From Mariprofundus sp. NF (GTDB lineage: Bacteria > Pseudomonadota > Zetaproteobacteria > Mariprofundales > Mariprofundaceae), in the NCBI RefSeq assembly GCF_013387455.1, contig NZ_VWNC01000002.1, forward strand, positions 124,001 through 188,000: a DNA stretch of 64,000 nucleotides, read 5' to 3'. Shown here one piece after another: positions 6,621-62,677 of this stretch (within the stretch, counting starts at the first letter, position 1; every line of letters begins with the position of its first letter). The notes beneath the pieces were generated by a model. That model did no database searches. It was given only the letters and a program-made list of their open reading frames with translations, and was not told the DNA's origin. The translations under genes were made by a program, and so were the position numbers.

Positions 6621-7508
6621 ATGAATGGTTCCAGCCAGAAACTGAGAACCGCGCTGCTTCTGCTTCTGGCCAGCGCCCTGTTTTACGGCTTCTCATTCGT
6701 AAAACTTCCCGGCATTGACCGCATTGCTGATGATTATTTCAGCGAATCGATTAAAGCCGCCACTATCGCCTATGCCACCACACGCGGTGTGAATGCCGTG
6801 GTTTCAGTGGTCAAAGAGTCACATCTGGAGCTTGCCCCGGCAGGAGTCGGCGTCACCATCGCCGCAGGCCAGATCCTTGACCCCATTGATGATATGACCG
6901 AGCGCCTCTCATCGGTGCTGGTTGCAGCGATCGCCTCGCTCGGCATCCAGAAGCTCGGCTTTGAGATCAGTGAAGCGATCTCGTTTAAAACCATCGCTAT
7001 TCTGTTACTGCTGAGCATCCCACTGCTCTGGATAGGCAGCGCCAGCATGACACCCCTACTGCAGCTGGCGATAAAGTTCAGTCTAATCCTGCTGTTGCTC
7101 CGTTTTATGCTGCCCGCATCAGCCATGATAAGTGATTCGCTGTATAGCAACTGGTTACAGCCGGGCATGGATGAATCGATGCAGAAACTCTCTGTCGTTT
7201 CGCAAAACTATGATGATATGAGCAGCATGGCGCCTGAACAGAACCAGAGTTTTCTCTCTTCGATGACGGCCGGTGCCACAGATAAAGTAGAGAAAACCCG
7301 GCAGGCATTTCTGAATATGGTAGAGAATGCTGAAAACATCGTCGCTTCCCTGCTCAGTCTGATGACTGCCTATCTAACCATCTTTATCGTACAGATTCTA
7401 TTGTTACCCCTGTTTATGCTCTGGCTGCTTATCGCCCTGTTTAAAAGCAGAACAGTGGATGAGATGACAATATCCCTGAGCAACAGGCTCAGACCCGTTC
7501 TACAATAG
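6621..7508 (+). CDS. Unrecognised polytopic membrane protein
   Basis: 295 residues from the ATG at 6621 (the frame is open back to 6564, overlapping the Pmp3-type gene). Hydrophobic segments lie at about residues 9-29, 120-140, 143-168 and 245-280. The first is followed by a conserved-looking soluble part (IDRIADDYFSESIKAATIAY, then TRGVNAVVSVVKESHLEL) and the last two are separated by a hydrophilic stretch with KVEKTRQAFLNMVENAEN that may form a coiled coil. I cannot assign a family. It is the last gene of the plus-strand run from 4965 and faces the response-regulator gene convergently. Confidence 0.75.
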   Translation: MNGSSQKLRTALLLLLASALFYGFSFVKLPGIDRIADDYFSESIKAATIAYATTRGVNAVVSVVKESHLELAPAGVGVTIAAGQILDPIDDMTERLSSVLVAAIASLGIQKLGFEISEAISFKTIAILLLLSIPLLWIGSASMTPLLQLAIKFSLILLLLRFMLPASAMISDSLYSNWLQPGMDESMQKLSVVSQNYDDMSSMAPEQNQSFLSSMTAGATDKVEKTRQAFLNMVENAENIVASLLSLMTAYLTIFIVQILLLPLFMLWLLIALFKSRTVDEMTISLSNRLRPVLQ

Positions 7509-52394: not shown

Positions 52395-52970
52395 TTATTT
52401 GATAACAACACCCTTGATCACAACCGGCGTTACAGGCACATCATTGTGACCTCGTGCTGAACTGGTTGGCACCATGGCAATTGCATCAACGACATCCATG
52501 CCTGCAGTCACCTTGCCAAATACGGTATAACCCCAACCATTGATATTGCGGGAGCGGAAATTGAGAAAGGCATTATCCTTCAGATTGATGAAAAACTGGG
52601 ATGTGGCTGAGTGCGGATCTGAGGTGCGCGCCATGGCAACTGTACCACGAAGGTTTTTCAAGCCGTTATCAGCTTCACTATTGATCGGCGCAAGCGTTGT
52701 CCTCTCCCTGAAACTGGCTTCGTAACCTCCACCCTGAATCATAAAACCGGGAATAACTCGATGGAAAATGGTGTCATCATATGCAGCAGCCAGCGCATAC
52801 CTGAGAAAGTTCTTCACACTCTCCGGCGCTTTCTCTGCATAGAGCTCAATCTCGATATTGCCTTTGCTCGTCTGGATTTCAACATGCCTGTTGCCCTCAG
52901 CAGCGCCAGCCTGCATAGCCGAAACAGCCAGCAGCGAACAGAAAGCAGCAACCTTAATCAATCGTTTCAT
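52395..52970 (-). CDS. Periplasmic cyclophilin-type peptidyl-prolyl isomerase
   Basis: 191 residues from the ATG at 52970 (AAGGAGATGT upstream). Signal peptide MKRLIKVAAFCSLLAVSAMQ ending AGAAEGNR. Cyclophilin core: FHRVIPGFMIQGGG, ARTSDPHSATSQFFINLKDN and GYTVFGKVTAGMDVVDAI, with the catalytic arginine in FHRV. It should speed proline isomerisation during folding in the periplasm (PpiA-like). It faces the tiny-ORF cluster divergently. Confidence 0.94.
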   Translation of the reverse strand: MKRLIKVAAFCSLLAVSAMQAGAAEGNRHVEIQTSKGNIEIELYAEKAPESVKNFLRYALAAAYDDTIFHRVIPGFMIQGGGYEASFRERTTLAPINSEADNGLKNLRGTVAMARTSDPHSATSQFFINLKDNAFLNFRSRNINGWGYTVFGKVTAGMDVVDAIAMVPTSSARGHNDVPVTPVVIKGVVIK

Positions 52971-53068
52971 ACTTACATCTCCTTGTCTGCCAGCCAGCAG
53001 AACAGCAAACCTATGGATTAGAGAGAGTCCCATCAATCAGACAAAAAATCTCAAACATCTTGAAAAAG

Positions 53069-53084
53069 CGTGATCTGGATCACG
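53069..53084. promoter_or_regulatory. Crp-like palindrome 1
   Basis: CGTGATCTGGATCACG is a perfect 7-2-7 palindrome. Its core GTGATCT-x-GATCAC matches the known E. coli CRP consensus at nearly every position, and it is flanked by AAAG and GTTT as in that consensus. It lies between ppiA-like and the first tiny ORF and could serve either. A TTGACA follows at 53087. Confidence 0.65.
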
Positions 53085-53154
53085 GTTTGACACCTTTCAC
53101 TGAGCAGTGTTCCGCGCCCCTTGCCAAGAGGGCAGTAAAATAAAGGAGTAGATC

Positions 53155-53223
53155 ATGATCAAGTTCGACATTGCATACGCAACGCTGACACTCGCCTGTT
53201 TTTTCGTAGCCGCCTCAATTTAA
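53155..53223 (+). CDS. Tiny membrane peptide 1 (22 residues), new family
   Basis: ATG with TAAAGGAGTAGATC just upstream. The product begins MIKFDIAYATL and ends ACFFVAASI: a short polar start and a hydrophobic helix of about 15 residues. It shares 13 of 22 residues with the ORF at 53313 and the same M-x-[KE]-F-D-I-A start with that at 53489. Codons for KFDIAY differ from those in the second copy at every third base yet encode the same residues, which argues strongly that the peptide is translated. Function unknown; a membrane-complex accessory peptide is one guess. Confidence 0.72.
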   Translation: MIKFDIAYATLTLACFFVAASI

Positions 53224-53238
53224 TAACCTGAAGAGAGG

Positions 53239-53254
53239 TGTGACCCTGAACACA
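53239..53254. promoter_or_regulatory. Crp-like motif 2
   Basis: TGTGA-CCCTGA-ACACA, matching TGTGA-N6-TCACA with one mismatch in the second half. It sits between tiny ORFs 1 and 2, 59 bases before the second start. Confidence 0.4.
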
Positions 53255-53282
53255 GCCACACACAACCGATTCATCCGACACT

Positions 53283-53312
53283 ACCTCCATCAACACGACT
53301 GGAGGTTTTTTT
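53283..53312 (+). terminator. Terminator-like hairpin that contains the ribosome binding site of tiny ORF 2
   Basis: ACCTCCA (53283-53289) pairs perfectly with TGGAGGT (53300-53306), with a 10-base loop, and seven T run from 53306 to 53312. The GGAGG in the right arm is also the ribosome binding site of the ATG at 53313. The hairpin could end transcription after ORF 1, block translation of ORF 2, or both. Confidence 0.65.
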
Positions 53313-53381
53313 ATGCTTAAATTTGATATCGCCTATACGGCTCTGGCACTAAGCTGCATTTTCATCGGCACATCGATCTGA
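53313..53381 (+). CDS. Tiny membrane peptide 2 (22 residues), new family
   Basis: ATG seven bases after GGAGG. The product begins MLKFDIAYTAL and ends SCIFIGTSI. Conserved positions with copy 1 include M1, K3-F4-D5-I6-A7-Y8, L11, L13, C15, F17, S21 and I22. A single cysteine sits mid-helix in copies 1 and 2 only. Its ribosome binding site lies in a hairpin arm, so expression may be conditional. Confidence 0.72.
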   Translation: MLKFDIAYTALALSCIFIGTSI

Positions 53382-53413
53382 TTTTTCAGAGCACGCTTAA
53401 CTATTTAACATAG

Positions 53414-53429
53414 TGTGACATCTGCCACA
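53414..53429. promoter_or_regulatory. Crp-like motif 3
   Basis: TGTGA-CATCTG-CCACA, one mismatch from TGTGA-N6-TCACA, placed 60 bases before tiny ORF 3. The distance to the ATG is almost the same as for motif 2. Confidence 0.45.
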
Positions 53430-53488
53430 TTGCTGACACGCCAGCACTGCATACTTCCCCCCATCACACGGCTCTGGAGGGAGACATT

Positions 53489-53560
53489 ATGTTTGAATTC
53501 GATATTGCTATTTCACTGATTACACTGACCGGTTTTTACGTTGGCGGCGCACTGATCTAA
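53489..53560 (+). CDS. Tiny membrane peptide 3 (23 residues), new family
   Basis: ATG with GGAGGGAGACATT upstream. The product begins MFEFDIAISLI and ends GFYVGGALI. It keeps M1, F4-D5-I6-A7 and L13 of the family, with K3 changed to E and the mid-helix cysteine replaced by G. It is the most divergent copy and is separated from copy 2 by 107 bases containing a Crp-like motif, so it may be expressed on its own. Confidence 0.7.
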   Translation: MFEFDIAISLITLTGFYVGGALI

Positions 53561-53659
53561 GATGAATGTGGTTAGCTACTGCTAATCATCACAAGGATTC
53601 ACAACGAGCGCTTGAGGTGGATCGTTAGCTTCCCATCAACAGCAAAAACACGCATGCGA

Positions 53660-54427
53660 TCAGGCACTTAGATGTTGATAACGCGAAGCAAGCGTCTGCA
53701 GATCCATCCAGCTTTTCTGTTTCTGGGCTGGTGAGCGCAACAGGTAGGCAGGATGATAGGTCACCCAGACCGGTATGCCCTGATAATCATGCCAGTGGCC
53801 ACGCAGTGAGCCCAGCGGAGCATCCGTCTCCAGTACAGTCTGTGCTGCCACACGCCCCAACAGACAGATTATCTTCGGCTGCAACAGCTCAAGCTGCTGC
53901 TCAAACCATAAATTACAGGATTGCACCTCATCGATACGCGGGTCGCGATTGTTCGGCGGCCTGCATTTGATGGTATTCATAATATAGACCCGGTCCCGAT
54001 CCAGATCGATTGCAGCCAGCATACGATCAAGCAGCTGACCGGCACGCCCGACAAACGGCTCACCCTTCAGATCCTCATCACGCCCCGGCGCCTCGCCGAC
54101 AAAGACGATGTCAGCAGTTTCACTACCGACACCAAACACCACCTGCGTACGCGTTTCAGCCAGCCCGCAAAGTCGGCATGTTGCCGCCTTCTCGGCCAGA
54201 GCAGAGAGACTGCCAAAGTTCAATTCAGAGGCTGCGGTCTCAGCCTGCGCAACAGGTATAATCGGAAGGTCAACAACCGGAGCTTGCTGTGGCGTTGATG
54301 CAGGCAGAGCAGATGCAGCCGCAGACTCCGGCGCTGGAATTTCCGGCCAGGATGTAAAAAGGGAAACCGGTGTCTGCACACCGATTTCCCTCAAATACGT
54401 TTTTAGAAATAGCTCGTTTTCGGCCAA
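53660..54427 (-). CDS. Family 4-type uracil-DNA glycosylase
   Basis: 255 residues. Motif A is VGEAPGRDEDLKGEPFVGRA and motif B is TYHPAYLLRSP. Cysteines in CRLCGL, TIKCRPPNNRDP and EVQSCNLWF are placed to bind the 4Fe-4S cluster of family 4 enzymes. It removes uracil from DNA as the first step of base-excision repair. The only start ahead of the conserved FLKTYLREIG helix is TTG at 54427. A Pro/Ala-rich linker (about residues 28-60) joins that helix to the core, common in proteobacterial members. 22 bases after fbp. Confidence 0.92.
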   Translation of the reverse strand: MAENELFLKTYLREIGVQTPVSLFTSWPEIPAPESAAASALPASTPQQAPVVDLPIIPVAQAETAASELNFGSLSALAEKAATCRLCGLAETRTQVVFGVGSETADIVFVGEAPGRDEDLKGEPFVGRAGQLLDRMLAAIDLDRDRVYIMNTIKCRPPNNRDPRIDEVQSCNLWFEQQLELLQPKIICLLGRVAAQTVLETDAPLGSLRGHWHDYQGIPVWVTYHPAYLLRSPAQKQKSWMDLQTLASRYQHLSA

Positions 54428-62389: not shown

Positions 62390-62677
62390 TTGCCACCTCT
62401 ATCAGTCTGTCATATCTCTTCATTGCTTGATGATTACAGCAACCTTCTGCCTTCACAAGCACCATGACCGAAAGAGTAATCACCCCCTATTTCAAACGCA
62501 TGTGAAAAAGTTCACACGACATATCCACCTCTCTCCGGCACAATAGCCATTAATTATATCTATTGAGACTGAGGAGCAAGGGGATTCAATGGGGCATCCG
62601 CTGATTATAAACTTGATCACCGCACTGCAAATTCCCGGAAACCATTTCCAAACAAACACTGTAACCGGTCTGTTTCG

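Follow-up and report, generated by a model that had tools for sequence, protein, structure and literature searches.

In Escherichia coli, YnhF (CydY) is a protein of ~3 kDa that is made at low oxygen from a gene outside the cyd operon and that, as a separately encoded subunit of the bd oxidase, blocks an oxygen channel (PMC6853902). CcoM is a 36-residue subunit of the cbb3 oxidase (PMC10433244), and YohP, of 27 residues, reduces both the potential and the fluidity of the membrane and brings about metabolic silencing (PMC12719787). Accessory helices of oxidases have so far been known singly. The Mariprofundus locus described here, in a stretch of 64,000 nucleotides (the window, to which positions refer), holds three peptide genes in tandem, and the operator signature in front of them appears to find many such proteins together.

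Results

The three ATG frames with strong ribosome-binding sites that the original prediction had reported were all present. Copy 1 (53155..53223, plus strand; MIKFDIAYATLTLACFFVAASI) and copy 2 (53313..53381, plus strand; MLKFDIAYTALALSCIFIGTSI) are of a KFDIAY type, while copy 3 (53489..53560, plus strand; MFEFDIAISLITLTGFYVGGALI) represents a second sequence type with EFDIAI and not KFDIAY. Each encodes a peptide of 22–23 residues and has a ribosome site of GGAG type shortly before the ATG; the Shine-Dalgarno sequences are AAGGAG at 53143..53148, GGAGG at 53301..53305 and GGAGGGAG at 53476..53483 (all plus strand). The reported identity of copies 1 and 2 at 13 of 22 residues was reproduced, as were the synonymous changes in their six KFDIAY codons, where the third base is different in every codon; over the entire frames the two copies have 8, 2 and 15 differences at codon positions 1, 2 and 3 respectively. 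As read from the sequence, the neighbours are a peptidyl-prolyl isomerase gene on the left (52395..52977, minus strand) and, on the right, a convergent gene for a family-4-type uracil-DNA glycosylase (53660..54427, minus strand); these serve as synteny markers, the isomerase gene not being regarded as a partner. No gene follows the three peptide genes on the same strand, and no partner gene was found at the locus, either beside them or co-transcribed. Sited between the isomerase and glycosylase genes, they are neither in nor next to an oxidase operon, ccoNOQP and coxBA lying elsewhere.

A profile built from the three window sequences was searched against the genomes of the genus, the wider class and a sample of the phylum. 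It recovered copies 1 to 3 in the genome of the window (E ~1e-12) and defined a family of 18 copies in 10 of 23 Mariprofundus genomes, three in the window's genome and 15 in nine others, so that the frames are conserved in relatives as anticipated; this recurrence, together with the E value in the home genome, excludes a chance origin. Carriers include Mariprofundus sp. KV, M. ferrooxydans PV-1, M. micogutta ET2, Mariprofundus sp. OFTM123, S139_64 and Zetaproteobacteria bacterium CG1_02_53_45. Positive genomes have 1 to 3 copies, and nearly all 18 copies occupy one shared locus; PV-1 has a single copy in the same neighbourhood, at a greater distance from the glycosylase gene. The EFDIAI type occurs in all ten positive genomes and the KFDIAY type in six, with orthologues of copy 1 in genomes G007, G011 and G015, an orthologue of copy 2 in G015 and KFDIAY-type relatives of copy 2 in G019 and G020. 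Where the glycosylase-adjacent interval could be read in peptide-less genomes, it contained no such frame. As 13 of the 23 genomes lack the family, its function must be dispensable or replaceable. There was no significant match in the 55 other genomes of the class (78 class genomes searched), nor any family member beyond the genus in the sample of 398 Pseudomonadota genomes.

Selection on the protein, first suspected from the KFDIAY codons, is strongly purifying, with pairwise dN/dS of 0.07 (KFDIAY copy 1), 0.14 (copy 2 set) and 0.15 (EFDIAI), and with all pN/pS bootstrap intervals below 0.45; the ratio near 1 that had been named as the contrary outcome was not seen. An alignment of 16 family sequences has D5 and I6 without exception, an aromatic residue (Phe or Tyr) throughout column 17 and a small one (Gly or Ala) throughout column 19; in column 15 there is Gly or Cys, with a single exception. 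A small-xxx-small face with a fixed aromatic residue is what packing of the helix on another helix would be expected to keep. The claim that the peptides belong to no known family held up, as neither Pfam (E ≤ 10) nor NCBIfam (E ≤ 1) gave a match, models for CydX-, CcoM- and CcoQ-type subunits included. Several resemblances were set aside: an Rfam hit to TCV_H4 was a chance hit under the cut-off, with no other Rfam match; a likeness to PetG of cytochrome b6f (E 1.2) was also put down to chance; a relation to DUF6486, seen for a single sequence out of the 11 in another tiny family (E 0.02), fails the cut-off and was judged fortuitous; and common descent of the FDIA and VTAVIGTLG families, which look alike by eye, gained no support from profile comparison. 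Taken together, the sequence evidence makes it close to certain that the three frames are protein-coding genes of an undescribed family.

Upstream of all 18 copies lies a CRP/FNR-type palindrome, approximately TGTGAY-N4-R-N-CACA, with its centre 59–78 bp (mostly 62–67 bp) before the ATG. In the window these sites, given without strand, are cGTGATCTGGATCACg for copy 1 (53069..53084; centre 78 bp before the ATG; kept in G007, G011 and G015), TGTGACCCTGAACACA for copy 2 (53239..53254; 66 bp; identical in G015) and TGTGACATCTGCCACA for copy 3 (53414..53429; 67 bp; with a counterpart at every EFDIAI-type copy). Copy 3 also has a candidate -10 element, CATACT (53450..53455, plus strand), with an A at ~+29.5 from the centre of the site, a class II-like spacing. 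When 35 distinct promoters were aligned on the operator, A was found at +29 in 21 and T at +34 in 20, a weak -10 consensus with predicted starts (one of the 35 frames being lipoprotein-like and not a tiny helix) that falls at about the position expected of the -10 element in a class II promoter and is consistent with assignment to that class. It is very probable from this arrangement that each copy is under CRP/FNR-type control, and the proposal that the three are separately controlled is thus well supported, each appearing to have its own class II site. The coding nature of the frames, the purifying selection, the family and the operator with its geometry can all be read from the DNA itself. 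We note that an AT-rich palindrome, TGTGAACTATTTCACA, and variants of it occur at 62501-62516 of the window and at G000:C1:13532, C1:351350 and C7:255; the copy in the window and the one at C1:13532 are near genes for MscS-like membrane proteins, and the palindrome looks like a different element.

The combination of operator, ribosome site and start codon was used as a search pattern (GTGAYNNNNRNCAC, 36–64 bases, GGAG, 4–12 bases, ATG), which gave 121 matches in 22 of the 23 genomes of the genus and 10 in a reversed control. Behind these matches, across the genus, are several other unannotated single-helix proteins of 24–52 residues that belong to no accepted family. They comprise a family of 31–39 residues ending in ...VTAVIGTLGVITSYL or ...MTVIVGVMGFTTSIL, which many genomes carry, some with as many as three paralogues; other short hydrophobic frames (...DRAVIIAIVVLVAFYGVVSSLI, ...KKSIAAIIILIGVALIATAYL and MEFIQAFIITLLVVGYINVRRAYH); and several frames of 43–52 residues, including one (MPTAMHMHYHNTHKHEALAFIPEKYRDTVKIALLVPTGLAALTIFLLLGQSM) from the genome to which the window belongs. 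Among GGAG-start frames of 18–59 residues, 38 of the 49 that have the operator were membrane-like, compared with 29 of the 239 that lack it, an odds ratio of 25 that is to be read in the light of related genomes that are not independent and of loci partly picked for having sites. Outside the genus, 28 loci with the same architecture were inspected and had ordinary genes or unlikely frames in place of tiny helices. The FDIA peptides would therefore seem, with high probability, to belong to a wider, co-controlled set of tiny membrane proteins; to call them duplicated, as was done originally, is right as regards paralogy and too narrow as a description, the copies being part of this larger set.

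Some further loci behind the operator may be recorded. In Mariprofundus sp. S139_64 (locus L065) a single intergenic interval holds three unrelated frames for tiny membrane proteins with operators, at 6800(-), 7035(+) and 7296(+), one of which is of the EFDIAI type. At G000:C3:293989 and 295679 (L152 and L153) there are tandem secreted paralogues with a ICHIPPGNPDNMHTIEVG motif, each behind an identical site, TGTGATTTATGGCACA. A 95-residue secreted family (MKKLVIVSLMIFGLMNAPQIAAAEE...) without a Pfam match stands behind the operator in five genomes (L305, L257, L260, L288 and L296), and many Mariprofundus genomes have a weaker site at the same distance from their RNase J genes (L278, L284, L306, L307 and others). 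A 253-residue member of the regulon looks like OmpW; having no Pfam match, it was not given that name.

The palindrome also occurs near respiratory genes. At ccoN, encoding a subunit of the cbb3 oxidase, it is 36–37 bp before the GTG start in G000, G015 and G020 (L221, G000:C3:14000-20500, at ~2318 on the minus strand; L240 at 3375; and L230), and in G000 and G015 it lies just 3' of a TTGACA...TATTAT-like promoter. This position suggests repression of ccoN where the peptides would be activated, and the response of the two may be opposite. At the iron oxidase gene cyc2 the palindrome is ~120–147 bp before the start in G000, G007, G011 and G020; these sites (L223, L227, L235 and L238) are inside a conserved block, TGTTGACYCAGTGA...RTCACG. 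The cyc2 genes were recognised by the motif AXPXFAR[Q/K][T/Y]...CXXCH, which defines Cyc2 (PMC8406198). The ccoN and cyc2 sites tie the operator to respiration; joint production of peptides and oxidase does not follow from them. As to the regulator, the genome has 17 matches to the cNMP-binding domain, and of those read three (L160, L170 and L171) carry a helix-turn-helix. L160 and L171 have an R-E-x-x-S-R recognition helix as in CRP, a helix expected to fit a GTGA half-site, and both match solved CRP/FNR structures; they are candidate regulators of the peptide operators. A four-cysteine FNR was not seen among the helix-turn-helix regulators read.

The distribution of the oxidases was compared with that of the peptides. 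CoxA of the aa3 oxidase is found in exactly seven genomes, and peptides are present in all seven (six of which have the KFDIAY type) as against three of the 16 genomes without CoxA. Striking as this count is, the seven aa3 genomes form one side of a single branch in the glycosylase tree, and because co-occurrence then reflects one phylogenetic event it is not evidence for a functional link; aa3 was not accepted as the partner on this ground. The cbb3 oxidase is ruled out as an obligatory partner, since G007, G011 and G019 keep their peptides and lack it. With three genomes that have EFDIAI peptides and no aa3, neither oxidase can be obligatory for the whole family. In published work the CP strains (CP-5 and CP-8) are reported to have aa3 instead of cbb3, and M. 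micogutta to have the two together (PMC5513912). The suggestion that the peptides are accessory to an inner-membrane complex thus stays plausible, although no partner gene is adjacent and the aa3 association amounts to one event on the tree.

Discussion

We propose that the three monocistronic genes encode single-helix microproteins of the inner membrane. In a class II mode of activation, an activator of the CRP/FNR family would bind the palindrome near -41.5 and touch RNA polymerase, and the resulting transcript would begin with a short leader that carries a strong ribosome site. Peptide synthesis would probably respond to oxygen or energy state, because the operator of this regulon is also near the genes for the cbb3 oxidase and the iron oxidase. 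The helix, with its small-xxx-small face, conserved aromatic residue and Asp at the N-terminal edge, may then, much as YnhF/CydY does on bd oxidase, dock on a membrane complex of the respiratory chain and serve there as an orphan subunit with an accessory or modulating role. Docking on a respiratory complex is the leading mechanism, with a probability that we would put at roughly 0.4; the identity of the regulator, the signal and the docking itself are the steps that we infer.

The main rival to docking is that the peptides act on the membrane itself as part of a stress or energy-state response, lowering membrane potential, for which YohP provides a precedent (PMC12719787), or altering lipid packing. 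A bulk role of this kind would fit the finding that one operator precedes several tiny helices with no relation to each other, and a copy number that varies from 1 to 3, but the conserved D5, I6, aromatic 17 and small residue 19, together with the low dN/dS, point to a specific contact, and we consider this explanation unlikely. Another possibility, to which we give a little less weight, is that they regulate a non-respiratory membrane protein such as a transporter, sensor kinase or protease, like KdpF, AcrZ and MgtS. Monocistronic regulator peptides of that manner are common and fall in the same size class; the locus has no linked gene for a transporter or sensor, however, and an operator held in common with respiratory genes weakly favours respiration. 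Type I toxins of 18–29 residues exist, and short hydrophobic peptides in tandem could suggest an Ibs/TisB-like system under antisense RNA control. This is very improbable, as the strong ribosome sites are exposed, the leaders are less stably folded than shuffled sequences (z-scores of +1.4 to +2.4), a consensus scan of 52900-53750, itself weak evidence, found no promoter-like site on either strand and hence none opposite the genes, and the conserved activator sites, stable syntenic inheritance and activator-driven, short-leader design differ from that class. That the frames are untranslated and a small RNA or leader is the conserved entity is the least credible reading of all, given that substitutions are mostly at synonymous sites, that there is no stable structure and only the one chance Rfam hit under the cut-off, and that a leader would have no gene to serve 3' of it on that strand.

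Returning to docking on a respiratory complex, a broader picture can be drawn tentatively, which as a whole is possible although doubtful. Mariprofundus may have a hidden regulon of single-helix microproteins that turns over fast. It would consist of the 22–23-residue FDIA type and the further families of 24–52 residues, each with its own CRP/FNR class II promoter; their docking on membrane complexes would tune the iron-oxidising respiratory chain to oxygen, with species swapping one helix family for another. In microaerophilic iron oxidisers the peptides are candidate agents for adjusting a respiratory chain that has cbb3 and aa3, and if they do dock on these oxidases, the genus would be a natural experiment in the swapping of oxidase subunits. 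Ordinary gene calling is expected to miss such frames in the genomes concerned, and an operator followed by a Shine-Dalgarno sequence and a short hydrophobic frame offers a practical way to list microproteins without ribosome profiling.

Among known systems, the Ibs/Sib type I toxin-antitoxin repeats share with this locus short hydrophobic peptides in tandem; they differ in that no antisense promoter was found here and the peptides have an unstructured leader and activator sites. YohP, which is stress-induced in E. coli, resembles the peptides in size, in its single helix and in the condition-dependent expression that would be expected of them. CydX and CcoM are likewise tiny single-helix accessory proteins of respiration that gene callers usually overlook; however, the peptides match none of their models in Pfam or NCBIfam, and CydX is encoded in its oxidase operon whereas the peptides are not. 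With YnhF (CydY/CydH), the fourth subunit of cytochrome bd, there is no detectable sequence relation in the libraries searched, and the peptides are tandem paralogues of two types. Both are small single helices from a separate gene, and when the locus was compared with the low-oxygen control of YnhF, separate genes with CRP/FNR-type class II sites were what we observed.
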